Source: a virus
Direction: 5' to 3' (one strand)
DNA: 21,018 bases
Virus record (IMG/VR): IMGVR_UViG_3300046001_008696
Span: 1-21,018 of that record
Part shown: piece by piece, positions 986 to 15,803 of the stretch
Layout: the number at the start of each line of letters is the position of its first letter
Position numbering within the stretch: position 1 is the first letter of the stretch
Notes under the pieces: model-generated
What the model was told of the DNA's origin: nothing
The model's database searches: none
The model's input: only the letters and a program-made list of their open reading frames with translations
Program-made: the position numbers and the translations under genes

Positions 986-1254
986 AATTAGATAATTTAA
1001 AACAATTAGTTAAAGAAGAACTTAATCGTACTTTAAGTGAAAATGTAAGAAACAATAAAGATATTAAAGCTGGAGAATATGAAATAACATATGAACCAAT
1101 GATTGGAGAACCTAAAACTATTACAGTTAAAGTAGAAGAGGACACTACTCCTCGTGATACAGAAAATTTTTGGAGAAGTTTATTATCTAAAACTCATAAA
1201 AACTATAAGTTAGAAGATCGTCAAAAGAAAATAAAAAAAATAGTAAAAGCATAA
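982..1254 (+). CDS. Small protein with capsid-targeting-like N-terminus (hypothetical)
   Basis: A 90-residue lysine- and glutamate-rich protein. Residues 1-20, 'MKLDNLKQLVKEELNRTLSE', form an amphipathic helix ending in L-S-E followed by Asn. L/I-x-E is the cleavage signature of the T4 prohead protease gp21, and similar helix-plus-L-x-E N-termini recur in this window (5657, 11621). The middle ('EYEITYEPMIGEPKTITVKVEED') is beta-prone, followed by a basic C-terminal helix ('KTHKNYKLEDRQKKIKKIVKA'). I infer a small internal head protein that enters the prohead and loses its first 20 residues, leaving a basic fragment; this is not proven. It is coupled to the cupin-like gene by an ATGA overlap. 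Confidence 0.6.
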   Translation: MKLDNLKQLVKEELNRTLSENVRNNKDIKAGEYEITYEPMIGEPKTITVKVEEDTTPRDTENFWRSLLSKTHKNYKLEDRQKKIKKIVKA

Positions 1255-2292: not shown

Positions 2293-2307
2293 ATATTTAT
2301 GATAAAA
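2293..2307 (+). promoter_or_regulatory. ATATTTAT + A-rich motif; decides the downstream start
   Basis: ATATTTAT-GATAAAA ends immediately before the ATG at 2308. An in-frame ATG at 2299 is created by the motif itself (TTATGA), so 2308 is the better start. If this is a -10 promoter element the leader would be extremely short or absent. Confidence 0.45.
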
Positions 2308-2997
2308 ATGAAACAAATTTTAAGTGAACAGTTTTTTAGAATGCAAAAATTAGCAGGTATTTTAACTGAAAATCAAGAAAATGATATTTTAGCTCAAAAA
2401 GAATTTTTATCTGTTCTTCAAAAGAAAATAAAAGATCCAAATATTATAAAAAAAGCAGAAAAACTTGCTAGTAATTTATCAGATGAAGAAAAACAAAAAG
2501 TAATAGATACTGCAAAAAGTTTAATTCCAACCGGAGATCTTACATCCCAACTAAATGAATTTTTAACTGAAGAAATTGATTTAACAGATATTACTAATAA
2601 AATTCTTGCATCCCCTGGAGCAGAAGATAAATTAGAAAAATTATCTAACAATTTAACAGAATCAGATTTTAATTTAGAAGAAAACGATGGGGTAGGTGGA
2701 TTTGCTACTTTAGCTATATTTGGAATAGCAGGAGGATTATCTACTTGGATGGGAGTTGCGGGTTATGCAATCATAGCATCGAATCCTATTTTTGCTACAG
2801 CTGCAATATCTGCAGCATTAATTGCTTGTGTAGCATCAACCCTTGTAACATTTAGTTCAGACGGAAGCAAATACCCAAAACCTCAAACTGAGAAAGAACG
2901 TCAAGCATCCTTAAAAAGAAAAGAAACAAATCCTGAAGAATATGATTGGAGAAGTGGTATAAATGTTTTACCTGATTATGAAAACGAATCTAATTAA
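2308..2997 (+). CDS. Tagged hydrophobic protein, putative internal head / ejection protein
   Basis: 229 residues from the ATG at 2308; an ATG three codons upstream lies inside the promoter-like motif and is less likely. The N-terminal tag FFRMQKLAGILTE (residues 9-21) ends in L-T-E followed by Asn, a gp21-type cleavage site. Essentially the same tag forms the C-terminus of the scaffold protein (residues 393-403 there) and the N-terminus of the next gene. Residues 25-120 are charged helices. A second candidate site, N-L-E-E (122-125), immediately precedes a hydrophobic domain of two Gly/Ala-rich helices (about 129-158 and 160-182), followed by a polar basic tail. I infer that the tag directs the protein into the prohead and that processing releases a membrane-active C-terminal part. 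Family function is unknown. Confidence 0.65.
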   Translation: MKQILSEQFFRMQKLAGILTENQENDILAQKEFLSVLQKKIKDPNIIKKAEKLASNLSDEEKQKVIDTAKSLIPTGDLTSQLNEFLTEEIDLTDITNKILASPGAEDKLEKLSNNLTESDFNLEENDGVGGFATLAIFGIAGGLSTWMGVAGYAIIASNPIFATAAISAALIACVASTLVTFSSDGSKYPKPQTEKERQASLKRKETNPEEYDWRSGINVLPDYENESN

Positions 2998-3005
2998 AAA
3001 ATAAT

Positions 3006-3020
3006 ATATTTTTAATAAAA
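3006..3020 (+). promoter_or_regulatory. ATATTTTT + A-rich motif (variant, putative promoter)
   Basis: ATATTTTTAATAAAA, one mismatch from the ATATTTAT core, ends nine bases before the ATG at 3030 in the 32-base gap after the preceding stop. Position and A-rich tail match the other copies. Confidence 0.4.
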
Positions 3021-3029
3021 CTAAATAAA

Positions 3030-3599
3030 ATGAATAAAGAAACTTTTAGAATGCAAATGTTGGCCGGTATAATTACCGAAGGCCAATATAAAGAAAAACT
3101 TAATGAGGAATCAACAATTACCCCAGAACAAGTAGTTGATTCTACTTCAAAAATAATAAGTAAAATTAAAAATGATCCTAAAATTGATGCATTAGCCGCA
3201 AGTATAGCTAATGATCCAAAGAAAAAACAAGATCTATTAAATGCAGCAAAAAAATTAGGAATTAATCCTTTTAATTTAAATGAAAATTCAGAAGATTTCT
3301 ATAAAAAATTAGGTCTTATATTTGCTAAAAAATTAGAAAACGAAACAAATTCATTAGATGAGGAAGCTGATATGTCAGCAGCCGTAGGTCTTGGTTTTGG
3401 TGGATTAATTGCTGGAATGATTGGAGCTTCATATTTAGCCCAACAACTAGGAATGTTTGTAACTGAATATGTTAATGTTTGGGGAGATACTCTCGTAAAC
3501 CCCGCTGGATGGGTTCCTTTAGCAGGAGCGGCTGCGGGTGCTATTGGTGGTTTTATTTTCGGAGCAATACTAGAAGGAGTATTTGGAGATAGTAATTAA
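3030..3599 (+). CDS. Tagged Gly-rich hydrophobic protein, putative internal head / ejection protein
   Basis: 189 residues with the same plan as the upstream gene. The tag FRMQMLAGIITE (residues 6-17) ends in I-T-E followed by Gly, a textbook gp21-type site. A charged helical linker follows (about 20-108). A second candidate site, S-L-D-E-E (108-112), sits just before a C-terminal domain with two glycine/alanine-rich hydrophobic segments (about 115-147 and 158-184; 'GFGGLIAGMIGASYLA', 'AGAAAGAIGGFIFGAIL'). Such Gly-rich helical hairpins resemble pore-forming or membrane-inserting segments. The two proteins align best in the tag and in overall plan, so they may be distant paralogs or share only the targeting peptide. 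The gene ends a transcription unit: a terminator follows at 3658. Confidence 0.65.
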   Translation: MNKETFRMQMLAGIITEGQYKEKLNEESTITPEQVVDSTSKIISKIKNDPKIDALAASIANDPKKKQDLLNAAKKLGINPFNLNENSEDFYKKLGLIFAKKLENETNSLDEEADMSAAVGLGFGGLIAGMIGASYLAQQLGMFVTEYVNVWGDTLVNPAGWVPLAGAAAGAIGGFIFGAILEGVFGDSN

Positions 3600-3657
3600 A
3601 AAATAACTTACAGACAGATTCATAGCCTGTCGACTTAAAAAAATTATTAGAGATCTG

Positions 3658-3683
3658 TGGCCTCCTTTGGGAGGTCATTTTTT
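3658..3683 (+). terminator. Rho-independent terminator
   Basis: TGGCCTCC (3658-3665), loop TTTG, GGAGGTCA (3670-3677): an eight-pair stem with one G-T pair, followed directly by six T. It separates the hydrophobic payload genes from the metabolic cassette. Confidence 0.8.
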
Positions 3684-3690
3684 ATTTCGT

Positions 3691-3706
3691 ATATTTAAAC
3701 ATAAAA
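3691..3706 (+). promoter_or_regulatory. ATATTTAA + A-rich motif (putative promoter of the metabolic cassette)
   Basis: ATATTTAAACATAAAA lies between the terminator T-tract and the ATG at 3713. It is a variant of the recurring ATATTTAT element; its place just after a terminator supports a promoter role. Confidence 0.45.
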
Positions 3707-3712
3707 TAAAAC

Positions 3713-5077
3713 ATGGACAAAAAAATAGTAATAGTAGGAGCAGGTGTAGCAGGTATAAATGCTGCAACTAAATTAGTAGACAATGGATATCCTGGAGAAC
3801 TTATTACCATAATTGATATGGGTAAAGATCCATATAACCGCTTACCTGAAGAGGTAATGACAGGTATGCTAGGAGCTGGAGGATGGAGTGATGGCAAGTT
3901 AACTTACCATACCGCAATTGGTGGTGTATTATCAAAATACACAGGTGAGGAAAAAGCAATGGAATTGATGGATCAAGTGATTACTAACTTTAAACGTTTC
4001 CACCCTAAACCAGAGGAAGTACAATGTTCAAACCCTGAATCTGAACCTGAATTTATTAAACCATACTTTGGTTTACGTTTGTTTCCTGTATGGCACGTAG
4101 GTACAGATTACTTATCTGAAATTGCTAAAAATTGGTACGATTATTTAGTATCTAAAGGTGTTAAATTTGAATGGGGAGCTAAAGTTTATGCTATTGATTT
4201 TAAAAATAATATAGTTAAATTTAGAAACCAAAATCACCCTGAACTTCAAGCTAACATACAATATAATGAACTTATATTTGCAGTAGGCAAATCAGGTATT
4301 GACTTTGCCCAACAACTAGCAAACGAATATGAACTACCAGATGAACCCAAATCAGTACAAATTGGAGTTCGATTTGAGGCGCCACAACACCACTTTCAAA
4401 ATCTAATTGATATTTCATATGACTTTAAGTTATATAGAAAATTTGACGATAAAGGTGTTTCATTGCGTTCATTTTGTACAAACAATAATGCAGCATTTGT
4501 TGCTGTAGAGGAAACATATGGCGATGTAAGTTACAATGGACATGCTAAAAAAGATCCTAAATATTTAAATGGAATGACCAATTTTGGTATTTTAATGGAA
4601 ATTAATGGTATTGAAGATCCATTTACTTGGTCACGTGATGTAGTTTCTAAACTTAATGTAAGTGGTACTATACCACGTTTTCAAAATGATGGTATTTCTA
4701 ATTTTAATTTTAGAACAGGATTATATTACTCTCCAAACCAAACCCGTAAACCATCTTTAACATCTGAAGGTAACTCGGTTACTTGTATAGAATTATTTCA
4801 TGGATTAGATAAAATAAGAGATGCATTTGAAGGGTACTTTGAATATATTGAAGATTTTATTGAAGATATGAAAAAAGTATTCCCTACACTTAAAGATGAT
4901 TGGGGAATTTATATGCCGGAAGTCAAATATCTTTCACCAGAACCATTAGTAAATTATGAAGATCTTAGTTTAACAAAGTATCCTAACGTACATTTCGTAG
5001 GAGATGCTTTATCCGCTCGTGGTATAACAGTTTCGGGAGCGCATGGAGTTTATGTAGCAGAAAGTTTTTTAAAATAA
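3713..5077 (+). CDS. FAD-dependent oxidoreductase, COG2509-like
   Basis: 454 residues. The N-terminus has a Rossmann dinucleotide-binding motif, GAGVAG (9-14), with an acidic residue at the end of beta-2 (Asp35). 'GAGGWSDGKL' (54-62) resembles the GGAG-x-SDGKL signature of the COG2509 FAD-dependent dehydrogenases. Further family-like stretches are 'FPVWHVGTD', 'ELIFAVGKSG', 'IGVRFEAP' and 'SFCTNNNAAFVAVEE...NGHA'. The C-terminal 'VHFVGDALSARGITVSGAHG' (426-445) is the second FAD-contacting motif, with Gly-Asp near the flavin ribityl chain. All expected elements are present, so the enzyme looks intact. The substrate of this family is not established. It is an unusual gene in a phage structural region; it follows a terminator and a promoter-like motif and is paired with a kinase gene, suggesting an independently transcribed auxiliary metabolic cassette. 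Confidence 0.85.
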   Translation: MDKKIVIVGAGVAGINAATKLVDNGYPGELITIIDMGKDPYNRLPEEVMTGMLGAGGWSDGKLTYHTAIGGVLSKYTGEEKAMELMDQVITNFKRFHPKPEEVQCSNPESEPEFIKPYFGLRLFPVWHVGTDYLSEIAKNWYDYLVSKGVKFEWGAKVYAIDFKNNIVKFRNQNHPELQANIQYNELIFAVGKSGIDFAQQLANEYELPDEPKSVQIGVRFEAPQHHFQNLIDISYDFKLYRKFDDKGVSLRSFCTNNNAAFVAVEETYGDVSYNGHAKKDPKYLNGMTNFGILMEINGIEDPFTWSRDVVSKLNVSGTIPRFQNDGISNFNFRTGLYYSPNQTRKPSLTSEGNSVTCIELFHGLDKIRDAFEGYFEYIEDFIEDMKKVFPTLKDDWGIYMPEVKYLSPEPLVNYEDLSLTKYPNVHFVGDALSARGITVSGAHGVYVAESFLK

Positions 5078-5095
5078 ATAAATAAAATAAAAGTT

Positions 5096-5635
5096 ATGAA
5101 AATAGGATTTTGTGGAACAATTTCAGTAGGTAAAACTACATTAGTTAATGCTTTAAGAGAATTACCAGAATTTGCAGATTATCATTTTGCAACAGAACGT
5201 TCAAAATATTTACGTGATTTAGGTATTCCATTAAACACAGATTCAACATTAAAAGGTCAACTTATATTTTTAGCTGAACGAGCTAGTGAATTACTTCATG
5301 AAAATATGATAACAGATCGCACAGTAATTGATGTTATGGCATTTAGTCATTTATCAATTACTATTCCGTTTTTTATATCTGCTGATTTAAATAAGGCTGT
5401 ATCTGAATTAATACGAGATTATGATTATATATTTTATGTTTCACCTGAAGGTGTAGAATTAGAGGATAATGGAGTTCGTGTAGTAGATTCTGAATATAGA
5501 ATGGAACTTGATAAAACCATTAAAAACTTACTAGAACAACATAAATTTAAATTTAATACTATTACAGGATATGCTGAATTATCAGGTACTACCGAGGAAA
5601 GAATACAAAAAATTAAACAAGTAATGTCCCTTTAA
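5096..5635 (+). CDS. P-loop nucleotide/nucleoside kinase-like protein (AAA_28/NadR-type)
   Basis: 179 residues. A Walker A loop, GTISVGKT, lies at residues 7-14 at the very N-terminus. 'ITDRTVIDVMAF' (72-83) matches the DR-containing substrate-side motif of small nucleotide kinases, and 'YDYIFYVSPE' (109-118) the parallel beta strand that follows it. 'DNGVRVVDSEYR' (124-135) fits the arginine-containing lid, and a C-terminal region follows. Length and motif order suit the AAA_28 group, which includes NadR-like nicotinamide riboside kinases and phage deoxynucleotide kinases. The substrate cannot be read from sequence. It lies 18 bases after the FAD oxidoreductase gene and probably shares its transcript, so the two may act on related redox or nucleotide metabolites (inference). 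Confidence 0.75.
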   Translation: MKIGFCGTISVGKTTLVNALRELPEFADYHFATERSKYLRDLGIPLNTDSTLKGQLIFLAERASELLHENMITDRTVIDVMAFSHLSITIPFFISADLNKAVSELIRDYDYIFYVSPEGVELEDNGVRVVDSEYRMELDKTIKNLLEQHKFKFNTITGYAELSGTTEERIQKIKQVMSL

Positions 5636-5650
5636 TATTTATTAATAAAA
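5635..5650 (+). promoter_or_regulatory. ATATTTAT + A-rich motif (putative promoter)
   Basis: ATATTTAT-TAATAAAA begins on the last base of the upstream stop codon and ends six bases before the ATG at 5657, repeating the spacing seen at other genes. Confidence 0.5.
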
Positions 5651-5656
5651 TATAAT

Positions 5657-6514
5657 ATGAAACAGACTCGATTACTTGAAATTATACGTGAAGAAATAGC
5701 TGGTGCTTTAAGAGAAGGTGAAATGGAAGAGAAAGCTGCTAAAATGGCTCAAATTAAAGCTATTGATGCAAAACAAAAAGCATTAGATGCTGAAAAAAGA
5801 GATACTATGAAAAGTGGAGCTCTTGAAGAAGATACTTTAAATGAAATGGCTTATGATATTATCATATCTCTACCAAATGAATTAGCTAAATTACAAGATA
5901 AAATTAAAGATTCAACAAAAAAAGGTGAACAAAAACTTGCTAAGGCGTTAGAAATTATTCAAAAAACTAAAAAAGAAGGAAAACCAATTCGTCAAAGAGA
6001 TATTGCTAATGAAATGGGGTTAATTCAACAAGAAATTAATCCATTGATTAATAAACTTATTGATGTAGGTATTTTAGAAAAAGGTGAATCAGTAACTGGA
6101 GTAACTAAGAAAAAAGTTACTGATAAAGCACAAGGTAGACCAGCAGGTGAACCAAAATCAGAAAAACCAGCCTCTACAGGTAAAAAAGGAAGACCATCAG
6201 GTGAACCTAAAGCAGAAAAATCAGCTACTCTTACAAAGGGAGATGATGGATTTGATACAGTAGATTATTCAGATGATGAAGGATCAGCAGAAGCAATGAA
6301 AGCAGCAGGTAGTGATGAAACAGCAAAAGAATTAAGTAGCACACCTGAAGAAAAGAAAGTTAAATTTAACCAATTTTTAGCATCTGTTAAAAAAAATAAA
6401 GACGATAAAGCTAAAATTGATGGTATTTTAAAACTAGCAAAAGATAAATTTAAATTCGCTAAAACAATGATGGATGATTTAAAACGTGCTGCTGGTAGAG
6501 AAGTAGAAGTATAA
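5657..6514 (+). CDS. Putative capsid-packaged DNA-binding protein (winged helix + AT-hook-like repeats)
   Basis: 285 residues. The N-terminal amphipathic helix, 'LLEIIREEIAGALREGE' (residues 6-22), ends in L-R-E followed by Gly, a gp21-type cleavage site, and resembles the N-termini at 982 and 11621. Residues about 90-145 read as a winged helix-turn-helix: 'QRDIANEMGLIQQEINPLINKLIDVGILEKG'. A basic linker carries two near-identical repeats with GRP cores (160-172 and 178-190, 'GRPAGEPKSEK' and 'GRPSGEPKAEK'), similar to AT-hooks that bind the minor groove of AT-rich DNA. An acidic stretch (about 195-225) and a basic helical C-terminus (about 235-285) follow. I infer a DNA-binding protein loaded into the prohead, possibly condensing the AT-rich genome or acting on host or phage transcription after injection. 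A cytoplasmic regulator is the alternative. Its stop overlaps the next start (TAATG). Confidence 0.6.
   Translation: MKQTRLLEIIREEIAGALREGEMEEKAAKMAQIKAIDAKQKALDAEKRDTMKSGALEEDTLNEMAYDIIISLPNELAKLQDKIKDSTKKGEQKLAKALEIIQKTKKEGKPIRQRDIANEMGLIQQEINPLINKLIDVGILEKGESVTGVTKKKVTDKAQGRPAGEPKSEKPASTGKKGRPSGEPKAEKSATLTKGDDGFDTVDYSDDEGSAEAMKAAGSDETAKELSSTPEEKKVKFNQFLASVKKNKDDKAKIDGILKLAKDKFKFAKTMMDDLKRAAGREVEV
6134..6226 (+). repeat. Two 39-base in-frame repeats encoding AT-hook-like GRP units
   Basis: Unit 1 at 6134-6172 and unit 2 at 6188-6226 each encode thirteen codons of the pattern G-R-P-(A/S)-G-E-P-K-(S/A)-E-K-x-A, separated by a five-codon spacer. They differ mostly at third positions, pointing to an older internal duplication. 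Confidence 0.8.
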
Positions 6515-6873
6515 TGAAAGATAAAATATTTCAAATAAAGTTATCCCATCTTATCATAGGTGGGATACTTTTGTTGTTAACAATATTTTTACTTAAATGT
6601 AATGTTACTCCAACATTTGTCAACACATATGATAAAGAAAAAAAAGAAATAGACAGTTTACAAGTTGAAATTAGTAAATTAAAAAAATCTCAACTTAAAT
6701 TAAATAAAGATATAGATAAACAAATATTAATTACAGATTCATTAAATAAAGAAATTAAAATTACAGAAAAAGAGCTAACACAAACACGCACATATTATGC
6801 TAACAAAATTAAAAATATCAATAGTTCTTCTCCTTCTGAGCTTAACGAGTTTTTCACAGAAAGATACAAGTAA
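6514..6873 (+). CDS. Inner-membrane spanin-like protein (Rz-type), putative
   Basis: 119 residues. A short basic N-terminus is followed by one transmembrane helix (about 11-29, 'SHLIIGGILLLLTIFLL') and a long charged coiled coil (about 38-100, with Leu/Ile/Lys heptads). This is the topology of inner-membrane spanins (Rz): one N-terminal anchor and a periplasmic coiled coil. The end 'ELNEFFTERYK' resembles the 'FF.eRY' C-terminus of similar phage proteins (recalled). The next gene starts inside it in another frame, overlapping by 77 bases, as Rz1 genes do within Rz. No sequence family is certain, so the call rests on topology and arrangement. Spanins disrupt the outer membrane in the last step of lysis of Gram-negative hosts. 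Confidence 0.55.
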   Translation: MKDKIFQIKLSHLIIGGILLLLTIFLLKCNVTPTFVNTYDKEKKEIDSLQVEISKLKKSQLKLNKDIDKQILITDSLNKEIKITEKELTQTRTYYANKIKNINSSSPSELNEFFTERYK

Positions 6874-7225
6874 AATTTGCTTTTCATATAATAAAGCAAA
6901 ACAAATAGCAATTGACTTAGTCAGGGGAGACTCAGCTATAGCAGAATTAAAAATCATCAATAAATTAGTTTGGCAATTAAACGAAAAAATTAGTACTCAA
7001 GATAGTACTATTACACTTTACATAGCTAAAGAACAAAATTATATTAGTCAAATAAACAATTACGATAAAATTTCTACTAAAAAAGACGAAATAATAACGG
7101 GTCTTGAAAAAGATGTTACTAAATTAACTAAGAAAAATAATCGTTTAAAAACAGGACTTAAATACCTTGGTGGAGGATTCGTGGCTTCCATACTTACTAT
7201 TATTACCTTGATAGCAATTAAGTAA
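6797..7225 (+). CDS. Secreted coiled-coil protein with C-terminal anchor, spanin-pair partner (putative)
   Basis: 142 residues. The start lies 77 bases inside the preceding gene in a different frame; it is supported by the signal peptide it encodes (residues 1-20, ending TSFS before Gln, a cleavage context typical of flavobacteria). The body is a coiled coil (about 45-118), and a C-terminal transmembrane helix follows (about 122-141, 'GGGFVASILTIITLIAI'). There is no lipobox cysteine after the signal, so it is not a classical Rz1 lipoprotein; the only early cysteine is at about residue 28. N-terminal export plus a C-terminal anchor recalls unimolecular spanins. Its stop overlaps the terminase start (TAATG). 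Confidence 0.55.
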   Translation: MLTKLKISIVLLLLSLTSFSQKDTSKICFSYNKAKQIAIDLVRGDSAIAELKIINKLVWQLNEKISTQDSTITLYIAKEQNYISQINNYDKISTKKDEIITGLEKDVTKLTKKNNRLKTGLKYLGGGFVASILTIITLIAIK

Positions 7226-8823
7226 TGGCTGAAGATCTAAAAAAAGCAATAAGAGAAGAATATTTAAGATGTGCTACATCCCCGGCATATTTTATGAAAA
7301 AGTATTGCTACATTCAACATCCAAAACGTGGTAGAATCCAATTTAATCTTTATCAATTTCAAGAAAAAGTATTAACTTTATTTCAAGAAAATCCTTATTC
7401 AATGGTTTTGAAATCTAGGCAATTAGGAATTTCAACTTTATGTGCGGGTTATTCTTTGTGGATGATGATTTTTCATCAAGATAAAAATATACTGTGTATT
7501 GCTACAAAACAAGAAACTGCTAAAAACATGGTTACCAAAGTAAGGTTTATGTATGAAAGCTTACCTTCTTGGCTTAAAGAAAAAGATAAACCTACTGAAG
7601 ACAATAAATTAACATTACGTTTAAAAAACGGATCTCAAATTAAAGCAACAGCAGCATCAAGTGATGCAGGTCGTTCAGAAGCCGTTTCTTTGCTAATCAT
7701 AGATGAGGCCGCATTTATTAACAACATTGGAGAAATATGGGCTTCAGCACAGCAAACATTAGCTACAGGTGGTGGATGTATTGCTTTATCTACTCCTTAT
7801 GGTACAGGTAATTGGTTTCACCAAACATGGGTTGCTGCCGAAATGGCAGAAAACAGTTTTTTACCAATTAGATTACCTTGGCAAGTTCACCCTGAACGAG
7901 ATCAAGTATGGAGAGATAGACAAGATTCTGATTTAGGAATTAGAATGGCAGCACAGGAATGTGACTGTGACTTTTCTACATCTGGAGATACTGTATTTTA
8001 TCCTGACGATATAACATTTTACGAAAAAACATTTATAAAAGATCCATTAGAAAAACGAGGAGTAGACCAAAATCTATGGATTTGGGAACCTGCAGATTAT
8101 TCAAAAAACTATTTAATTGCGGCTGATGTAGCCCGAGGAGATGGAAAAGATTATTCTGCATTTCACATTTTTGATGTAGAAACATTTACTCAAGTAGGGG
8201 AATATAGAGGACAAATTGGTACAAAAGAATATGGTCATATGTTAGTAGGTATGGCTACAGAATATAATAATGCTTTACTTTCAGTAGAAAATTCTAACAT
8301 AGGATGGTCTACTATTCAAACTATTTTAGATAGAGGTTACCAAAATTTCTACTATTCACCTAAAGGTGGAAATATGAGTACAGATTCGTATTTTGATCCA
8401 TATATGGATACAAGTAGAATGACACCTGGATTCTCTATGACTACAAATACTCGACCTATTGCTATTGGTAAATTTCAAGAAGCAATACAAGACAAAGGAG
8501 TTACTTTTTACTCTAATCGATTACTAGAGGAAATGAAAGTATTTATATGGAGAAATGGTAGAGCAGAAGCCCAATCAGGCTACAATGATGACTTAATGAT
8601 GGCGTTTGCTATAGGTTGTTATTTACGTGATACCTCATTTAAATTTAGACAGTCAAATATGGATATGACTAGAAGTATGCTTAACGCTATATCAACTAAT
8701 ACCGCTAAATATTCGGGTGGGTATTCTTCTGGAGCAGCATATGCAGACAAATACAATAACAATCCATTTAATATTGATAACCCTTATTCAAACGAACAAG
8801 AAGATATTTCTTGGTTACTTTAA
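7225..8823 (+). CDS. gp17: Terminase large subunit (T4 gp17-like)
   Basis: 532 residues; the motor that drives DNA into the prohead and cuts it. The ATPase domain has a variant Walker A, KSRQLGIS (63-70), a Walker B with catalytic Glu, LLIIDEAAF (156-164), and a coupling motif, ALSTPYGTG (187-195). The C-terminal RNase H-fold nuclease has its acidic residues in 'LIAADVARGDGKDYS' (Asp301), 'LLSVENSNIG' (Glu355) and 'YNDDLMMAF' (Asp455/456). All key residues are present. It is a little shorter than T4 gp17 (610 residues). No small terminase was recognised in the window. The portal follows nine bases later, with no tail sheath or tube gene between, unlike T4. Confidence 0.95.
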   Translation: MAEDLKKAIREEYLRCATSPAYFMKKYCYIQHPKRGRIQFNLYQFQEKVLTLFQENPYSMVLKSRQLGISTLCAGYSLWMMIFHQDKNILCIATKQETAKNMVTKVRFMYESLPSWLKEKDKPTEDNKLTLRLKNGSQIKATAASSDAGRSEAVSLLIIDEAAFINNIGEIWASAQQTLATGGGCIALSTPYGTGNWFHQTWVAAEMAENSFLPIRLPWQVHPERDQVWRDRQDSDLGIRMAAQECDCDFSTSGDTVFYPDDITFYEKTFIKDPLEKRGVDQNLWIWEPADYSKNYLIAADVARGDGKDYSAFHIFDVETFTQVGEYRGQIGTKEYGHMLVGMATEYNNALLSVENSNIGWSTIQTILDRGYQNFYYSPKGGNMSTDSYFDPYMDTSRMTPGFSMTTNTRPIAIGKFQEAIQDKGVTFYSNRLLEEMKVFIWRNGRAEAQSGYNDDLMMAFAIGCYLRDTSFKFRQSNMDMTRSMLNAISTNTAKYSGGYSSGAAYADKYNNNPFNIDNPYSNEQEDISWLL

Positions 8824-8832
8824 AAACAAATC

Positions 8833-10731
8833 ATGGCAGACACAGGCTTATTTAAAAGATTACAACGTTTATTTTCAACTGATGTTATTATCCGAAATGA
8901 AGGAGATAATAAACTAAAAGTATTTGACATCAACAAAATACAAGTTTCAGGAGAATATGAAACAAATTCCCTAGTAGACCGATTTTCTAGAATATTTACA
9001 AACACAAACACTTCAATTTATGGATACCAAAGTAGTTTCAACTATCAAACAATACGCCCTACGCTTTATTCTGAATATGACTCAATGGATACAGATGCTA
9101 TTGTCGCCTCTGCTTTAGATATAATTGCTGATGAAAGTACATTACGTAATGATATGGGAGAAGTACTTCAAATACGTAGCTCCGATGAAGATGTACAAAA
9201 AATACTATACAATCTATTTTACGATGTATTAAACATAGAATTTAATCTATGGCCATGGGTTAGAAATATGTTGAAATATGGAGATTTCTTTTTAAAATTA
9301 GAAATAGCAGAAAAATTTGGTGTATATAATGTTATCCCATACAATGCCTTTCATATTGAAAGACAAGATGGATACGATAAAGAACACCCTGCATCTATAA
9401 GATTTAAATTTGATCCAGATGGAATTACAGCTGCCTCAAGTTATGGATTTTACAATGTTCCAAATTCTGGAAATCAAGCAAATGCTATTTATTTTGATAA
9501 TTATGAAATGGCTCACTTCCGTTTATTAACGGATACTAACTTTTTACCTTATGGTAGATCTTACCTAGAACCAGGACGTAAATTATTTAAACAATACACT
9601 ATGATGGAGGATGCAATGCTAATCCATAGAATTGTTAGAGCACCAGAAAAACGTATATTTTATATTAATGTAGGAAATATTGCACCTGCTGAGGTAGAAA
9701 ACTTTATGCAGAAAACGATTTCAAAAATGAAACGTACTCCATACATTGATCAAGAAACAGGCGATTACAATTTAAAATACAACATGCAAAACTTGCTTGA
9801 AGATTTTTATATTCCTGTTAGAGGAACAGATCAAGCAACTAAAATAGATAATTTAGGTGGTTTACAGTATGATGGAATCCAAGATGTTGAGTATTTAAGA
9901 GACAAATTATTTGCTGCTTTAAAAGTACCTAAAGCATTTATGGGCTACGAAAAAGATTTAACAGGTAAAGCTACATTAGCGGCTGAAGATATTCGTTTTG
10001 CTCGTACAGTTGAACGCATACAACGCATTATGGTGTCTGAATTAACTAAAATCGCATTAGTACATTTATACGCGCAGGGATACACAGATGAAAGTTTAAC
10101 TAATTTTACTCTTTCATTAACAACTCCATCAATCATTTACGATCAAGAAAGAGTTGCTTTACTAAAAGAAAAAGTAGATTTAGCTTCTCAAATGATAGAG
10201 CAAAAAATTATGTCTACAGATTGGATATATGAAAATATATTCCACTTAAGTGAAGATCAATACGATGAAAATAGAGACTTACTTGTTCAAGATGCTAAAC
10301 GTAAATTTAGAATAACTCAAATTGAAAACGAAGGTAATGATCCATTAGAAACAGGTAAATCTTATGGAACACCACATGATTTAGCTTCCCTATATGGTAG
10401 AAGTAGATATGAAGATGGTGAAGTTCCTGTTGGATATGATGAAAAAGAAACTTTAGGCAGACCAGCAGAAAAAGTAACTGATAGAAATACTCAAGATAAT
10501 GCTTTTGGCAAAGACAGAATTGGAGCATCAGATATGAAAAAAGATAACGATGAATCAGATTCAACTAAACCAAAATATCAAGGTGGATCTCCATTGGCGC
10601 TAGAAACAAAAACCACTAGAAATAAAAATTCTAAAATGTTTAACGATATTAAAAATCAAAAGAAACAAATGATTTTTGAAGCTGATATTAAAGGAAATTC
10701 ATTATTAGATGAATCACAGATACGAGAGTAA
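8833..10731 (+). CDS. gp20: Portal vertex protein (T4 gp20-like)
   Basis: 632 residues; forms the ring at the unique capsid vertex through which DNA passes and on which the prohead starts to assemble. Family-typical stretches are 'TDAIVASALDIIADEST' (88-103), 'MLKYGDFFLKLEI' (146-158) and the hallmark 'EDAMLIHRIVRAPEKRIFYINVG' region (259-281), closely matching T4 gp20. 'LEDFYIPV' and 'VPKAFMGYEKDLTGKATLA' complete the clip and stem part. The C-terminal 130 residues are polar and low in complexity and contain candidate L/I-x-E sites, so the tail may be trimmed. It lies between terminase and the core-protein genes. Length is above that of T4 gp20 (524) because of this tail. Confidence 0.95.
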   Translation: MADTGLFKRLQRLFSTDVIIRNEGDNKLKVFDINKIQVSGEYETNSLVDRFSRIFTNTNTSIYGYQSSFNYQTIRPTLYSEYDSMDTDAIVASALDIIADESTLRNDMGEVLQIRSSDEDVQKILYNLFYDVLNIEFNLWPWVRNMLKYGDFFLKLEIAEKFGVYNVIPYNAFHIERQDGYDKEHPASIRFKFDPDGITAASSYGFYNVPNSGNQANAIYFDNYEMAHFRLLTDTNFLPYGRSYLEPGRKLFKQYTMMEDAMLIHRIVRAPEKRIFYINVGNIAPAEVENFMQKTISKMKRTPYIDQETGDYNLKYNMQNLLEDFYIPVRGTDQATKIDNLGGLQYDGIQDVEYLRDKLFAALKVPKAFMGYEKDLTGKATLAAEDIRFARTVERIQRIMVSELTKIALVHLYAQGYTDESLTNFTLSLTTPSIIYDQERVALLKEKVDLASQMIEQKIMSTDWIYENIFHLSEDQYDENRDLLVQDAKRKFRITQIENEGNDPLETGKSYGTPHDLASLYGRSRYEDGEVPVGYDEKETLGRPAEKVTDRNTQDNAFGKDRIGASDMKKDNDESDSTKPKYQGGSPLALETKTTRNKNSKMFNDIKNQKKQMIFEADIKGNSLLDESQIRE

Positions 10732-10742
10732 ATAAGCTCCAT

Positions 10743-10758
10743 ATATTTATAAATAAAC
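10743..10758 (+). promoter_or_regulatory. ATATTTAT motif containing T4-late-like TATAAATA
   Basis: ATATTTAT-AAATAAAC lies upstream of the ATG at 10771. This copy also contains TATAAATA on the + strand at 10748-10755, identical to the T4 late promoter core, correctly oriented and with room for a short leader. Confidence 0.55.
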
Positions 10759-10770
10759 AAATATAATAGA

Positions 10771-11628
10771 ATGCAAATTAATCATTCCAAGTATAAAAAT
10801 ACTGGTATCCTATTTGAGCTTTTAATTCGCCAAATTACTAATGATACATTAGATAGTAAGGATTCACAGGCAACGAATATACTTAAAAAATATTTCGTTA
10901 AAACGGAATTAGGTCGTGAGTACAAGTTATATGAAACTCTATTAAAAAAAACATCTTTAACTGAAACTAAAGCAAATATTATTACTAATACATTGCTAGA
11001 TTCATCTAAATCTTTAAATAAAGGTGTTATTAAAAGACAAAAATACAATTTAATTAAAGAAATTCAAAATCATTATGATTTAAATGAATTTTTTAACCAT
11101 AAATTACCCAACTATAAAGTACACGCGGCATTCTATACATTGCTAGAAATATCTAATTCAACAAACCAAATAGACCCAGAACAAATCATCAACAATAAAG
11201 TTACTATATTAGAGCATTTAACAGCTGCTCAAATTAAATCAACTAAAATTAAAGATGAAGTAATGAGTGAATTTGAAAAATCAGATAAAGATGTTCGTTT
11301 TATAGCATATAAAATGTTATTAGAGAGCTTTAATGTAAAATACGATACATTACATACTAATCAAAAAACAATCTTAAAAGAATATATTACATCAGTAGAT
11401 AATACTTCTCGTTTAAAAGAATTTTATACTAATAAAATAAATGAAATTAAAACAGAATTAGCTGATTTGAATAAAAGAACTAAAAATAAAGTTACAAAAA
11501 TTAAAATTAACGAAATTATATCTATTATCACACCACCATTGAAAAATGCTAAGATTACAGATAATGATTTAGTTGATTTGTTACAGTATTATGACTTAAT
11601 TAATGAATTAGAAACTGTAAATGAGTAA
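10771..11628 (+). CDS. Conserved head-module protein in the core-protein position (function unknown)
   Basis: 285 residues, mostly helical, basic and Asn-rich, with no membrane segment and no N-terminal L-x-E tag. The start, 'MQINHSKYKNTGILFELLIRQITNDTL', and 'NILKKYFVKTELGREYKLYETLL' (about 42-64) match, from memory, a conserved uncharacterised family found near the portal and protease genes of marine T4-like phages. The C-terminus (about 220-285) contains a coiled coil. It lies between portal and protease, where T4 has the core proteins gp67 and gp68, so a prohead-core or assembly role is likely by position. It has its own upstream promoter-like motif, and its end overlaps the next start by eight bases. 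Confidence 0.6.
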   Translation: MQINHSKYKNTGILFELLIRQITNDTLDSKDSQATNILKKYFVKTELGREYKLYETLLKKTSLTETKANIITNTLLDSSKSLNKGVIKRQKYNLIKEIQNHYDLNEFFNHKLPNYKVHAAFYTLLEISNSTNQIDPEQIINNKVTILEHLTAAQIKSTKIKDEVMSEFEKSDKDVRFIAYKMLLESFNVKYDTLHTNQKTILKEYITSVDNTSRLKEFYTNKINEIKTELADLNKRTKNKVTKIKINEIISIITPPLKNAKITDNDLVDLLQYYDLINELETVNE

Positions 11629-12052
11629 TCTTAAAGAAATAATTAGAAAAAAATTAAAAGAAATGTCCGCTACTAATCAAGGCGGTTCTTCTTTTAGTGC
11701 GGGAAGTGGTGAAACATATGCTACTCCATTTGCTTTTTCTAAAACTTCAAAACCACCTAAATATTATTACAAATTAGGTTATAAACCTGTACCTAATAAA
11801 ATTAAAGGATCTAGTTTACAAGTTAAACAACTTTGGGAAGAAGAAAAAGAAAAAACAGATGTTAAAAAATTTCAAGAAGCAAGATTAAACGAATTTGATG
11901 AAATACAAAACGAACTAAATTCTCTTATCTCAAACGCAAAAAACCAAACCATAGAATACTATACAGCAAACCCAGGCCAATTTAGCGTATACAAACCTAC
12001 ATCAATGGCCTTAGAATATATTAAAAAAGCAAAAGAACTATTAAGTAAATAA
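11621..12052 (+). CDS. Small prohead-core-like protein with cleavable N-terminal helix
   Basis: 143 residues. The N-terminal amphipathic helix, 'MSNLKEIIRKKLKEMSATNQ', holds an L-K-E site at 12-14, fitting gp21 processing. It is followed by a Gly/Ser-rich turn and 'GETYATPFAFSKTSKPPKYYYKLGYKPV' (about 30-57), a motif seen in small proteins of marine myovirus head clusters (recalled, not searched). The rest is helical and charged. Position between portal and protease matches T4 gp67/gp68, small core proteins processed during maturation; homology to them cannot be shown by eye. It overlaps the upstream gene by eight bases and is two bases from the next, so the block is translated together. Confidence 0.6.
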   Translation: MSNLKEIIRKKLKEMSATNQGGSSFSAGSGETYATPFAFSKTSKPPKYYYKLGYKPVPNKIKGSSLQVKQLWEEEKEKTDVKKFQEARLNEFDEIQNELNSLISNAKNQTIEYYTANPGQFSVYKPTSMALEYIKKAKELLSK

Positions 12053-12054
12053 AA

Positions 12055-13818
12055 ATGAAAAAGACACTACAAGACCAGTATTTATTGATTAAAGAAGGTA
12101 AAGGACATAAAGGAGTTTTCCTTGCAGATGCAAAACGTCAATTCCCAAATATTGTACGCAACGCCGCTACATTTGAGGAAGCATCATCTTGTCTTAAAAC
12201 TAAAAATATTATATCGGAAAATGTAATTGGTTTAAATGCTATTAATTCTATATTTGAACCTAAAAAAAAGGAATCATATGAGTTAGCATTTGAAAACTTT
12301 TTAGCAGAAGCTAAAAAGAAAAAAGAAGAAGATGAAAAAGCTGAATTAAAAGCTACATCAAAACAAGTAGAAAAAGATTTAGAGCATAACTTTGATTATA
12401 AAGATGATAAAAATCCTGATAACTTGATATTTGATCAAATTATGACGGGTTATTATACGGAAATGAAAGATCCTAAAAATGCAGATAAAACCATGCAAGA
12501 ATTAAAAGACATGGTATTTAAAAACTTGCAGAAAGATCCAATCTTTTATACAAAAGAGGGACAATTTGGAGTTAAAGGTTTAGGATATTCAGTAGATCAT
12601 CCCGGTTTAGGTGAACCTAAAGAACCTAAAGGAAAATATAAAGCATCGGGATACGGTGATTTAAATGAAGGTGTAATGTATGGTGATTCTGATGGTGATT
12701 TTGACGAACAAGAAAATAATAAAGAAAGAGCTAATTGGTACTATGATGCATACCTAGGTGAAAAAGATCCTAAGAAAAAAGATGAGTACTTAAAAATAGC
12801 TCGTGAGTATGGTTCATATCTTGGATGGGGAGAAGAAGAACTTCCTGTAAATGAAGAAGAATCTAAATTACGTAAAGTAATTCGTGAGATGATTGATGCT
12901 GAACTTGAAGAAGCATATCAATTAGTTAATATTAATCCTTTAAAAAGTGATAAAGAAAGAAATGAGAGAGATCCTCAACAATTCCTTACAACGTATATTA
13001 AACCTTCAGTAGTAGATTCACTTACTAAAAATCAACACTTAAGAATCCTTAGAAACCCATCTAACCCAGAAAATGTTACACTTGCTATTCGTGCTACATT
13101 AGCTCCTATTTCTTCTAAAAATTTAGGTAAAACTACAGATAATTTAGATAAACTTGGAATAGATATTCCTACAGATTTTAAAAGTTTTTTAACTGATACA
13201 AATAATTTGGGTGGAGAAAAAAAATTACCAACAAGGATAGGAGAGATGACAACATATAAAATACTTAATAATGCTACTTTAAATAAAGATGGAAGTTTAG
13301 TAATTAAAGTTTTAAATCCAAAATATAATAAACCAATGGAATCCTTAAAGGAAAGCGTTGAAAAAGAATTGGCTGCCATCAATAAAGAAGCAGAACATGA
13401 AATTATTGCTTCTAAATTAGAAAAAGTACAAACATTAATTGATAAAAAGCAAGCTCAAATTTCTAGATTAGATGAAGATGAAGATTTAAAAGATCTTACT
13501 GACGCTAAAAAAGTTAAAGAAATTTCAAAAGACATCAAATCACTAGAAAAAGCAAAAGCTAAATTAGAGAAAATGATGCATAAAGGTAAAGCAAAATCTC
13601 CACGTAAAGAGGTAATTGATGAAACCGATGAAACTATTGATGAAGTTAATGTTCAACCAACTGAAGAATATTTAGCTGCTAAAAAAGATGCTGAAAATAG
13701 ATATGATAAAGGTGAAGAAATTGATTCAATTATGTCAAATTATACAAATTTATCTGACGAAGATCAAGAAAGATTATTTGATGATCTAGAAGGTAAAATG
13801 AACGGAATGGAAAACTAA
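12055..13818 (+). CDS. Large multi-site prohead-core / polyprotein-like protein (function unknown)
   Basis: 587 residues, highly charged (Lys, Glu, Asp). The N-terminus, 'MKKTLQDQYLLIKEGKGHKG', has an I-K-E/G site at 12-15. Further candidate gp21 sites lie along the chain, for example L-N-E/G at 203-206. An internal amphipathic helix, 'ESKLRKVIREMIDAELEEAY' (269-288), closely resembles the N-terminal targeting helices of the 982, 5657 and 11621 proteins, as if a second tagged unit began here. Residues about 290-430 look like a compact, less charged domain I do not recognise; coiled coils follow (about 430-515). By position and composition it is a prohead core protein that may be cut into several internal peptides. 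No enzyme motif is visible. It is two bases from the gene before and one from the protease gene. Confidence 0.6.
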   Translation: MKKTLQDQYLLIKEGKGHKGVFLADAKRQFPNIVRNAATFEEASSCLKTKNIISENVIGLNAINSIFEPKKKESYELAFENFLAEAKKKKEEDEKAELKATSKQVEKDLEHNFDYKDDKNPDNLIFDQIMTGYYTEMKDPKNADKTMQELKDMVFKNLQKDPIFYTKEGQFGVKGLGYSVDHPGLGEPKEPKGKYKASGYGDLNEGVMYGDSDGDFDEQENNKERANWYYDAYLGEKDPKKKDEYLKIAREYGSYLGWGEEELPVNEEESKLRKVIREMIDAELEEAYQLVNINPLKSDKERNERDPQQFLTTYIKPSVVDSLTKNQHLRILRNPSNPENVTLAIRATLAPISSKNLGKTTDNLDKLGIDIPTDFKSFLTDTNNLGGEKKLPTRIGEMTTYKILNNATLNKDGSLVIKVLNPKYNKPMESLKESVEKELAAINKEAEHEIIASKLEKVQTLIDKKQAQISRLDEDEDLKDLTDAKKVKEISKDIKSLEKAKAKLEKMMHKGKAKSPRKEVIDETDETIDEVNVQPTEEYLAAKKDAENRYDKGEEIDSIMSNYTNLSDEDQERLFDDLEGKMNGMEN

Positions 13819-13819
13819 G

Positions 13820-14452
13820 ATGAACAAAGAACTTTTAATAGAAACCAGACAATTTACCCCAAAACCAGTTCGCTTAATTGAAGGAATGGGTAATGGTGGT
13901 AATGTATTTGTTGAAGGTATTTTAGCTACTGTTGAAGTAAAAAATGGTAATGGAAGATACTATAAAAAAGAGTTATGGGATCGTGAAATTGAAAATTTTC
14001 AAAATAAAATTAAACAAAAATCTACAGAAACTGTAGGTGAACTAGACCACCCCGATTCTCAAGTAATTAATTTAAAAAATGCATCTCATGCCGTTCGTGA
14101 TTTATGGTGGGTTGGAGATGAAATCCATGGCAAAGTAGAAATATTCTGTGACATGGGTGATAAAGGCACTACCTCAGGTCGTATTGCAGGAGCATTAGTT
14201 AAAAATGGCTTAGTTATTGGTATTTCCTCTCGTGGAATGGGCTCATTAAAACAAATGGGTGAAGTAATGGAGGTACAAGATGATTTTGAACTATTAACAT
14301 GGGATTTAGTCTCAAACCCTTCAAATCCAGATTCATGGATGAAAAATGGTGCATTAAATGAATCACGTACTACATTTTTAGACCCATATTCAAAAACCAA
14401 CTCAATTATTACCGAAATTCTTTGCGCAAAAGGAACTTGTCCTTTATTTTAA
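13820..14452 (+). CDS. gp21: Prohead maturation protease (T4 gp21-like)
   Basis: 210 residues, the usual size of the family. This serine protease of the herpesvirus-assemblin fold cleaves scaffold, core and capsid proteins after Glu at L/I-x-E sites. Catalytic elements are visible: 'TVGELDHPDS' with the histidine at residue 77, and 'IGISSRGMG' (133-141) with the nucleophilic serine at 136 or 137. 'LLTWDLVSNPSNP' (159-170) is also family-typical. The N-terminus contains L-I-E sites (6-8 and 19-21), consistent with self-cleavage as known for T4 gp21. It sits directly before the scaffold gene, as in T4. All genes for its likely substrates are in this window. Confidence 0.93.
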   Translation: MNKELLIETRQFTPKPVRLIEGMGNGGNVFVEGILATVEVKNGNGRYYKKELWDREIENFQNKIKQKSTETVGELDHPDSQVINLKNASHAVRDLWWVGDEIHGKVEIFCDMGDKGTTSGRIAGALVKNGLVIGISSRGMGSLKQMGEVMEVQDDFELLTWDLVSNPSNPDSWMKNGALNESRTTFLDPYSKTNSIITEILCAKGTCPLF

Positions 14453-14591
14453 AACGCGACTTTAATAATCTTATACATACGTATACTAGAATATACCATC
14501 CCCCTCAACATATATGGTATTAATTAAATGAATATCTATTACGTTTTTTAAATAAACGTACTTTCCCAACAAAATTAAATTTAGGAAAAAA
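14453..14591 (+). promoter_or_regulatory. Protease-scaffold intergenic region with two inverted repeats
   Basis: This is the longest gene-free stretch in the window (139 bases). Two perfect 7-bp inverted repeats occur: ATACCAT (14493-14499) with ATGGTAT (14514-14520), and TACGTTT (14540-14546) with AAACGTA (14554-14560). Neither has a T-tract, so they are not standard terminators. They may set mRNA processing or stability and so raise scaffold and capsid protein output relative to protease. ATATCTAT at 14532-14539 is a weak variant of the window's promoter-like motif. Confidence 0.4.
14583..14586 (+). promoter_or_regulatory. Shine-Dalgarno-like AGGA before the scaffold gene
   Basis: AGGA lies five bases from the ATG at 14592. 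It is one of few SD-like sites with workable spacing here; most genes have only A-rich leaders. Confidence 0.45.
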
Positions 14592-15803
14592 ATGGCAACA
14601 AACAGAGCAATGCTTAAAGAAGCAATCGCTGACGCTAAAGCTGTAAAAGAAACAGCAATAGCAAACGCAAAAGCAGCCCTAGAAGAAGCCTTCACACCTC
14701 AACTTAAGTCAATGTTATCAATGAAACTTCAAGAAATGGACCTCGAAGAGGACAATTTTGAAGAAACATATATGTCCGAAGAAGATGAAAATCTTAAAGA
14801 AATGTATGATGAAAAAGATACAATGGAAGAAGTTGATTTAGAAGAGCTTTTGGCTGAATTAGAAAAAGAGGACAAAATGGAAGAAGGTCTTTATGAAGCT
14901 GAAGAAAATGAAGAAGACATGGAAATGTCTGACGAAGAAGAAACAGAAGATGAAGGCGAACCAATCGACCTTGAAGACATGACAGATGAAGATCTAAAAT
15001 CAATGATTGAAGATGTAATCGCAGACATGATCAAATCAGGTGAACTTGAAGCTGGTTCCGAAAGTAAAGAAGATGAAATGGACATGGACATGGAAATGGA
15101 ACCTGAAGACGAAGAAGTAGATTTAGCAGAATTGTTAAGAGAAATTGAAGAAATGGAAGATAACGAAAAACCAGTTAATGAAGTAGATTCAGATTTTTCA
15201 GATCCAGATTTTAAAAAAATGAAAGCTATTGAAGATCAATTAATGGAATCATCAACTACTTCTCTTAATGAAGAACCCGTTTCAATAATTGCTGTAATAG
15301 CAGGTATGGTTGCACTTTTTTCTGCATCTTTTGGAGTAAGAAAAGCTCAGGAATATGCTAAAAAAAGAGCAGAAACAGACCCAAAATGGAAACAATGGTA
15401 CGATTCCGCAGTTAAAACTGGAAAAGATATCAGTGATACAGGAATGGGTGGTTCAGGAGATCTTGAAGAAGCTTATTCTACTATTGAAACTTTAAAGTCT
15501 GAATTAAACGAGATTAATTTGTTAAATGCTAAATTGCTTTACACAAACAAAATCTTCAAGTCTAAAACTTTAAATGAAAATCAAAAAGTAAAAGTGTTAA
15601 GTTCTTTTGACAAAGCTAAAAACGTAGGTGAAGTAAAAATGGTATTTGAAACATTAAATGAGGGAATCAAAGTTTCAAAAAATACTATTAACGAAAACCT
15701 AGGTAGAGCTTCAAAAGGAACAATGGCACCTAACGTTAAAAAACCAATCGTAGAGTCAAACGAGGCATTTTTAAGAATGCAAAAATTGGCTGGAATTATT
15801 TAA
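14592..15803 (+). CDS. gp22: Prohead scaffold protein (T4 gp22-like) with inserted transmembrane segment
   Basis: 403 residues; T4 gp22 has about 270. The N-terminus is helical (1-50), followed by a very acidic Glu/Asp/Met region (50-200). The C-terminal part, 'LEEAYSTIETLKSELNEINLLNAKLLYTNKIFKSKTLNENQKVKVL' (291-336), is typical of marine gp22 homologues and contains many L-x-E sites that would be cut to small peptides. Between them, residues about 200-290 appear inserted: S-L-N-E-E (224-228), then a hydrophobic helix (229-248, 'VSIIAVIAGMVALFSASFG' region), then a basic helix. A membrane-type segment is unexpected in a soluble scaffold. The last eleven residues, LRMQKLAGII with the preceding Phe, are almost identical to the N-terminal tags of the proteins at 2308 and 3030. 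Position between protease and capsid gene supports the call. Confidence 0.88.
   Translation: MATNRAMLKEAIADAKAVKETAIANAKAALEEAFTPQLKSMLSMKLQEMDLEEDNFEETYMSEEDENLKEMYDEKDTMEEVDLEELLAELEKEDKMEEGLYEAEENEEDMEMSDEEETEDEGEPIDLEDMTDEDLKSMIEDVIADMIKSGELEAGSESKEDEMDMDMEMEPEDEEVDLAELLREIEEMEDNEKPVNEVDSDFSDPDFKKMKAIEDQLMESSTTSLNEEPVSIIAVIAGMVALFSASFGVRKAQEYAKKRAETDPKWKQWYDSAVKTGKDISDTGMGGSGDLEEAYSTIETLKSELNEINLLNAKLLYTNKIFKSKTLNENQKVKVLSSFDKAKNVGEVKMVFETLNEGIKVSKNTINENLGRASKGTMAPNVKKPIVESNEAFLRMQKLAGII

Follow-up and report, generated by a model that had tools for sequence, protein, structure and literature searches.

A peptide shared by scaffold tails and cargo-like proteins of T4-like phages as a candidate capsid-targeting tag

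In bacteriophage T4, the internal proteins (IPs) carry a short N-terminal capsid-targeting sequence (CTS) that brings them into the core of the prohead and that the protease gp21 removes at an L/I-x-E site (PMC9026906, PMC3012670, PMC5694885, PMC7411985). As to what a CTS of this type binds in the prohead, the relevant passages speak of affinity for the core, of co-purification of the IPs with the scaffold protein gp22 and of residues 4 and 7, before the cleavage site, as the main targeting positions; they name no exact partner (PMC9026906). Scaffold tails are a second known kind of peptide. Those of the 80alpha scaffold protein (SP) and of SaPI1 CpmB are described as nearly the same C-terminal helix-and-hook (RIIK), an amphipathic helix plus a hook within the last 16 residues, which binds the capsid protein (PMC5644958). 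The herpesvirus scaffold C-terminus is likewise described as binding the major capsid protein (MCP), with a protease cut about 25 residues from the end (PMC12474303). Here we analyse a virus record of 21,018 bases (IMG/VR record IMGVR_UViG_3300046001_008696; the whole record is called the window below) in which one peptide, the tag, is found both at the C-terminus of the putative scaffold protein and near the N-termini of two cargo-like proteins. Both kinds of peptide, cargo tags as well as scaffold tails, are known separately; their identity, at opposite chain ends and on dozens of protein clusters, was not found in the open-access literature, and the strings RMQKLAG, KMQKLAG, QKLAGII and QKLAGIITE occurred in no open-access paper searched.

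Like the CTS of IPI, IPII and IPIII, as described, the tag is short, stands at the N-terminus of a variety of proteins and comes with an [LI]xE site of the gp21 type. By eye, however, the two sequences are not alike apart from the x-E site, and here, unlike in T4, the cargo tag and the scaffold C-terminus are one peptide. The likeness to CpmB is that a second protein has the scaffold's C-terminal peptide, although docking is established there and proposed here. CpmB is portrayed as a competing scaffold with a C-terminal tail, whereas in our records the peptide occurs on dozens of unrelated proteins, for the most part N-terminally and beside a protease motif; the two tails show no sequence relation by eye. 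To our knowledge, no cargo uses the herpesvirus scaffold tail, whose M-site is placed about 25 residues from the scaffold end, compared with 15 for the site predicted here. Accounts of phage P1 describe an N-terminal packaging signal on DarB and, unlike what we see, neither a consensus among the Dar N-termini nor a separate scaffold; those of the giant phage SPN3US describe propeptides on head proteins, with identical N-termini reported for gp53 and gp54 only.

The scaffold tail and its copies on other proteins

The first-pass annotation of the window had pointed to three near-identical peptides, and the translations match them exactly as quoted there. They occupy residues 12–24 of a 232-residue open reading frame (ORF), residues 6–17 of a 189-residue ORF and the extreme end of a 403-residue ORF (Table 1). 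None of the three ORFs matched a Pfam or PHROGs family at E 0.001. According to Pfam and PHROGs scans and the ORF list, the head genes of the window are of the T4 type. The 403-residue ORF lies between the genes for an S77 protease and gp23, in the T4 order 21-22-23, and because of this location it was assigned as the scaffold; it is also acidic, mostly helical in its AlphaFold2 (AF2) secondary structure and, by eye, equipped with several [LI]xE sites. By capsid protein, the nearest isolate is Flavobacterium phage immuto_2-6A (58.9% identity; immuto below), Microcystis phage Mel-JY01 stands at 47.1%, and Rhodothermus phage RM378 is more distant (35.7%).

The tail is a constant feature of this scaffold type. 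Eighty viral loci were fetched by capsid protein; two had no upstream room (L169, L204; L and G numbers are our labels for individual records) and three no upstream ORF, leaving 75, some of them on the same contigs as in our other set of related records. The core R[MFW][QKR]x[LI]A[GF] closes every one of the 75 readable scaffold-position ORFs, with 55 distinct versions among them. Within this core, R and A are invariant (75/75), L is present in 74 and G in 68, and the residue following R is M in 42, F in 25 and W in 8. The consensus of the tag is approximately [NS]E-x-F-x-R-[MFW]-Q-K-L-A-G-[IL]-I, and an [IL]xE motif stands 4–7 residues N-terminal of its R in 65 of the 75. Similar ends were found on more distant scaffold-position ORFs: RMKKLAGIVK in Mel-JY01, RIKRLAGL in RM378, RMQKLADIS in the uncultured LR756508 and RWQVLAGIKKVD in G059. 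LR756511 ends in LKTLAGRKAK, a weaker likeness, and T4 gp22 has a different ending. Immuto gp067 (L084:25626-26867) is annotated as a DNA polymerase phi-like protein; its position, similarity and C-terminal tag identify it as the scaffold.

Copies on other proteins were sought with profiles built from scaffold tails only. A 16-residue profile from 11 distinct tails was run on 12 records, among them two contigs of ~156 kb and the full genomes of immuto and Mel-JY01. Seven non-scaffold copies scored above the reversed-protein maximum of 12.2, and four of them are protein starts: window 2299, immuto gp083, immuto gp230 and G006:18271. A 13-residue profile derived from 55 distinct tails and run on 29 records (1,996,461 bases) gave 21 non-scaffold copies with scores of at least 12, the reversed maximum being 13.8, a value due to one peptide that recurs in 11 records. 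On the 163-kb contig G025, this profile found three N-terminal copies and one internal copy. Five copies, window 3030 included, fell between 12.0 and 13.8; another match in this range, G005:45183, lacks the LAG core and was excluded from the counts as a chance match. The window's tag at 3045 scored 12.4 and is too near the N-terminus for the 16-residue profile, and it therefore rests on exact pattern matching and on many like N-termini. The 13-residue profile also missed tags visible by simple pattern in G002, G004, G013 and G016.

Pattern searches at the DNA level gave the same picture. A pattern for [RS]MQxLAG matched 23 times in 14 related records, the reversed pattern not at all. Among viral contigs, the M form followed by ITE was found in at least 120 stretches, the F variant in 23 and the W variant in 15; 257 Gb of prokaryote genomes held four stretches with the M pattern, which in both scans also allows N, S, Q or H before MQ. 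Two of these four look like tagged N-termini, possibly on phage DNA (L425, in a Fluviicola metagenome-assembled genome (MAG), and L422, with HMQKLAG, in a Flavobacteriaceae MAG); the other two (L423, L424) look like chance matches.

The first-pass annotation had proposed searching for the motif near chain termini. Among the matches listed for the M form with ITE, 129 R or K copies stand in open frames, taken without positional selection, and 116 of them lie at most 29 residues from the first possible start. The remaining 13 comprise 11 with an ATG 5–19 residues upstream, some of which look internal, and two with none near. The 13 W copies in open frames all lie within 29 residues of a start, and about half of the 23 F copies are N-terminal; the others stand deep inside a larger protein, which in L447 is the gene before terminase. 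Random placement, named beforehand as a finding that would speak against the proposal, is thus countered by a strong N-terminal bias, though some copies are internal. That the tag can sit at either chain end is borne out by the scaffold C-terminus, by the many N-termini and by two non-scaffold proteins with a C-terminal tag (L033 and G031:29877-30422).

What follows the tag is diverse. With the tag removed, the 129 listed copies and 16 proteins of assembled records gave, among the matches listed, 124 distinct remainders of at least 40 residues. These fell into 68 clusters (single-linkage BLAST, E 1e-4), the largest with 31 members; the mature part of protein 2 (window 3030) belongs to a four-member cluster of tagged proteins. 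None of 20 representative tagged proteins exceeded the Pfam cut-off. The tag is often followed by another conserved piece, which resembles [SG][QE]YKxxLNE. Large tagged contigs often carry the relevant head genes (S77 in 11 of 16, gp23 in 9 of 16).

A protease motif adjoins nearly every copy. [LIV]xE directly follows 19 of 20 non-scaffold copies, compared with a background of 5.6% in the same ORFs (binomial p 3e-23, an optimistic value because several copies are homologous); the 20 are the 13-residue matches scoring at least 12, less the excluded G005 match. Since the profile was built from chains that end before this motif, the enrichment is independent evidence. The first-pass annotation had the scaffold copy ending exactly where cargo is cleaved. 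Its placement of a site after the cargo copies agrees with the enrichment; the scaffold, for its part, also has a likely site, upstream of its tag (PIVE in the window).

If scaffold and cargo tags met one partner, their variable position might be expected to change together. Twenty-two of 50 tagged contigs have this scaffold type (a 23rd match, in G042, is actually a tag-bearing protein beside the terminase gene), and with 15 assembled records holding both tag kinds they make a set of 37 contigs. Cargo labels were entered by hand, with the second tag of G031 being C-terminal and that of G005 internal. The M/F/W states of scaffold and cargo agreed in 9.33 of 14 lineages after collapse at 70% identity (permutation p 0.014) and in 13.33 of 19 at 80% (p 0.0015); the permutation assumes independent lineages, which single-linkage collapse only approximates, and for one lineage, whose scaffolds divide evenly between M and W (four each), a single state was assigned by tie. 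A W-W match is also seen in G051 and G059, whose scaffolds are very divergent. Overall, the first-pass interpretation, in which scaffold and cargo use one docking peptide for the same partner in the prohead, is supported in part: the common peptide and the covariation agree with it, and the identity of the partner is what we infer.

Table 1. Features of the window that bear on the tag, with the head genes around them
Feature	Coordinates	Strand	Basis
Tagged cargo-like protein 1, 232 residues, hydrophobic segment, no known family	2299..2997	+	ORF list, family scans
N-terminal tag FFRMQKLAGILTE of protein 1	2332..2370	+	Profile scores 27.5 (16-residue) and 30.4 (13-residue)
Predicted prohead-protease site LTE after tag, protein 1	2362..2370	+	Sequence, motif enrichment
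Tagged cargo-like protein 2, 189 residues, glycine-rich hydrophobic C-terminal half	3030..3599	+	ORF list, family scans
N-terminal tag FRMQMLAGIITE of protein 2	3045..3080	+	Like N-termini in G003, G004 and many contigs
Predicted prohead-protease site ITE after tag, protein 2	3072..3080	+	Sequence, motif enrichment
Terminase gene	7225		Pfam/PHROGs scan of window ORFs
gp20 portal	8833		Pfam 1.3e-69
Prohead protease, Peptidase_S77 (T4 gp21 type)	13820..14452	+	Pfam 1.2e-26; PHROG head maturation protease
Scaffold (T4 gp22 position), 403 residues, C-terminal tag	14592..15803	+	Gene order; like ORFs at 75 MCP loci
Hypervariable cassette of scaffold, residues about 197-289	15180..15458	+	Alignment of 77 scaffolds
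Predicted prohead-protease site IVE right before scaffold C-terminal tag	15747..15755	+	[IL]xE upstream of tag in 65/75 scaffolds
C-terminal tag FLRMQKLAGII + stop, scaffold	15768..15803	+	R, A of core in 75/75; AF2 helix 391-399
Major capsid protein (gp23), proposed docking partner	15833..17545	+	Pfam 3.8e-70

A proposed docking helix and its rivals

Our preferred explanation, which we consider probable, is that the tag is a capsid-targeting peptide that copies the docking helix of the scaffold, probably for the inner face of the shell, and that is released by the prohead protease. The scaffold would be tethered during prohead assembly by a C-terminal docking helix behind a flexible linker, the likeliest anchor being the inside of the gp23-type shell. 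Unrelated cargo bearing a copy of the tag, usually N-terminal, would enter the prohead via the same docking site. Once the prohead is assembled, the S77 protease would cut both scaffold and cargo next to the helix, on its N-terminal side in the former ([IL]xE) and on its C-terminal side in the latter ([IL]TE), thereby freeing the cargo inside the head and letting the peptides leave. A single-chain AF2 prediction from 64 scaffolds places a short C-terminal helix at residues 391–399 (block pLDDT 82) behind a linker at 365–387 with pLDDT <50; this layout, in which a flexible linker leads to a predicted helix flanked by a protease motif, is consistent with a shell-docking tail imitated by cargo. 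On a simple scale, the tag has an unremarkable helical moment (0.13–0.36). In Mel-JY01 and RM378, a similar scaffold tail is kept and no tagged cargo was found, and the RM378 scaffold end, used as a query in RM378, gave no other match. Because the tail is present in these relatives, the cargo of the present clade may have copied it, the direction of copying then being from scaffold to cargo.

The closest rival keeps the head-targeting role and changes the partner: the tag could dock on the scaffold core rather than on the shell, with scaffold tails and cargo tags forming a bundle with each other or on the coiled coil of the scaffold. The same sequence evidence applies to it, and the T4 passages on the core and gp22 (PMC9026906) favor it, the T4 literature assuming such docking for the IPs. 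For the shell speak the position of the tag helix behind a disordered linker, albeit in a weak single-chain model, and the report that the 80alpha scaffold tail was seen bound to coat protein (PMC5644958). We judge the shell about twice as likely a partner as the scaffold core, and core docking as a whole appears rather unlikely. The regularity with which a cleavage motif adjoins the peptide (19 of 20 non-scaffold copies, 65 of 75 scaffolds) could also mean that the tag mainly recruits the S77 protease, the tagged proteins being substrates that are packaged by other means. Such a role is difficult to reconcile with a site that follows the tag in cargo but precedes it in the scaffold, with the description of T4 gp21 as needing only L/I-x-E (PMC9026906) and with the N-termini of the capsid proteins, an expected substrate, which by eye have no such tag; we regard it as improbable.

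Shared ancestry, with duplication or shuffling having spread one N-terminal piece of no common function, would account for the [SG][QE]YKxxLNE piece, whose frequent presence after the tag suggests that, in some copies, the stretch that spread was longer than the tag itself. The attached proteins are mostly unrelated, however, the scaffold copy is at the opposite chain end, the R and A of the core are kept in 75 of 75 scaffolds, and the M/F/W states covary; ancestry as the sole explanation is very improbable. As for a chance likeness among three short peptides, three such matches would be weak on their own, and the copy at 3045 fails the control of the 13-residue profile, but the family-wide pattern that emerges from the profile, pattern, viral-contig and prokaryote scans refutes it and leaves it a negligible probability.

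Several observations nevertheless count against a shell-docking peptide shared by scaffold and cargo. Tag copies are not confined to termini: a minority are internal, among them three of the seven found with the 16-residue profile (G005:13755, G009:9859 and G001:67470, at residue 233). Of the 16 large tagged contigs, seven yielded no gp23 and five no S77, although these may be fragments. The scaffold and cargo states disagree in immuto and G028 (W scaffold, M cargo), in G073, G075 and G078 (F scaffold, M cargo), in G037 (M scaffold, F cargo) and in G054 (M scaffold, W cargo). MCP columns compared with the scaffold M/F/W state gave weak, unsystematic signals, the top columns, 4 and 3, reaching z 3.55 and 2.53 among 321 columns with kinship uncontrolled. 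The AF2 scaffold model is weak overall (single chain, pTM 0.29). Finally, in T4 the targeting pieces of the IPIII CTS do not find the N-terminus of gp22 (ranks 100 and 962).

A cargo tag that copies the scaffold tail would offer a concrete, testable docking site for a peptide of the CTS type. The first-pass annotation had gone so far as to predict packaged proteins from the tag. The sequence rule does nominate a candidate set, dozens of small proteins that may be packaged and injected factors in phages of aquatic bacteria; that they are packaged is our inference, and no proteome paper on phage immuto was found by title. The tag might also be a natural tag for loading proteins into heads.

Some tagged proteins have unusual layouts. 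G001:67470-68627 is a single ORF that looks like a fusion of two tagged genes, with tag copies at residues 2 and 235, and G002 has a separate gene resembling its second part. In some phages, core-like proteins (G025:19155-20189, G021:27218-27910, G009:9859-10659 and L447) bear the tag deep in the chain or close to its end, at times with a variable domain after it, a second cassette-like site.

A scaffold cassette, a second motif and the T4 control

Between conserved parts of the scaffold, residues of about 197–289 are hypervariable, the commonest residue accounting for ~0.1 of the rows in most blocks of an alignment of 77 scaffolds (nine 5'-open ones having been dropped). Median pairwise identity is 0.11 in this cassette vs. 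0.73 in residues 1–50 and 0.61 in the C-terminal part. Cassette lengths range from 8 to 150 residues. Setting aside the 26 of 77 that are under 30 residues and those that are identical leaves 46 distinct cassettes, which form 33 BLAST clusters; 13 of the 46 contain a strongly hydrophobic stretch, and the immuto cassette is a tandem repeat. Exactly after [LIVM]xE begin 26 of the 46, vs. 1–8 at six shifted positions, in a region where the alignment is rough and acidic flanks favor xxE. Comparison of the cassettes with all ORFs and with mature cargo returned a single match of 26 residues, and thus no domain was found both as a cassette and as a separate tagged protein. From its sequence features, the cassette is possibly in-line cargo. 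More tentatively, and with slightly less than even confidence, we suggest that one docking helix serves as a general address for the head interior, present at the tail of the scaffold and at the head of dozens of unrelated cargo families (in some cases at their tail, or between two domains), and that the scaffold in addition has an exchangeable in-line cargo cassette bounded by protease sites. On this reading, sequence would reveal the packaged proteins throughout the clade, and the loading of cargo would be coupled to the docking sites of the scaffold.

The window (982-1254 and 11621-12052) and many related records contain a further N-terminal motif, M..LKxLI[KR]EE[IVL]..., which often has LNE after it. 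Of 57 matches to the LKxLI[KR]EE type, 46 fall in the first 21 residues of an ORF, compared with one match in reversed proteins; the motif may represent a further targeting tag, one that addresses some other partner. The two non-scaffold proteins with a C-terminal, scaffold-like tag (L033 at about 1310-2059 and G031:29877-30422) have an LKxLIKEE-like motif at the N-terminus. We considered the N-terminus of the scaffold as a second shared tag and rejected it, as its profile did not single out the LKxLIKEEI type: the best members of that type scored 14.5 and 14.0, below the 15.2 attained on reversed proteins. Among the remaining matches, four or five reached 15.5–16.7, of which G001:148758 (N-terminal LLEIIREEI) is of similar look.

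T4 itself served as a control. With the IPIII CTS as the query, the T4 genome returned IPII as identical, a 54-residue ORF at 36 and IPI at 29, the last within the chance range; gp22 was absent from these 11-residue matches, in a scan that could not place its offset N-terminus. The C-terminal peptide of T4 gp22 found no cargo in T4. The cleavage half of the IPIII CTS, YQEFIAEA, ranked KEQLIAEA of gp22 fourth among T4 N-terminal zones (score 19; next best 18). T4 was rejected as a case of tag sharing, the targeting half of the IPIII CTS being unmatched in gp22; its scaffold and cargo may have a common N-terminal cut site without common targeting residues. The 54-residue ORF (T4 AF158101, 18966-19130, minus strand) starts with MKTFKEFIKED, near the IPIII CTS, and is possibly a further internal protein.

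Between the tagged genes and the terminase gene, the window also encodes a pyridine nucleotide-disulphide oxidoreductase-like protein (3713-5077) and an AAA_28 NTPase (5096-5635).

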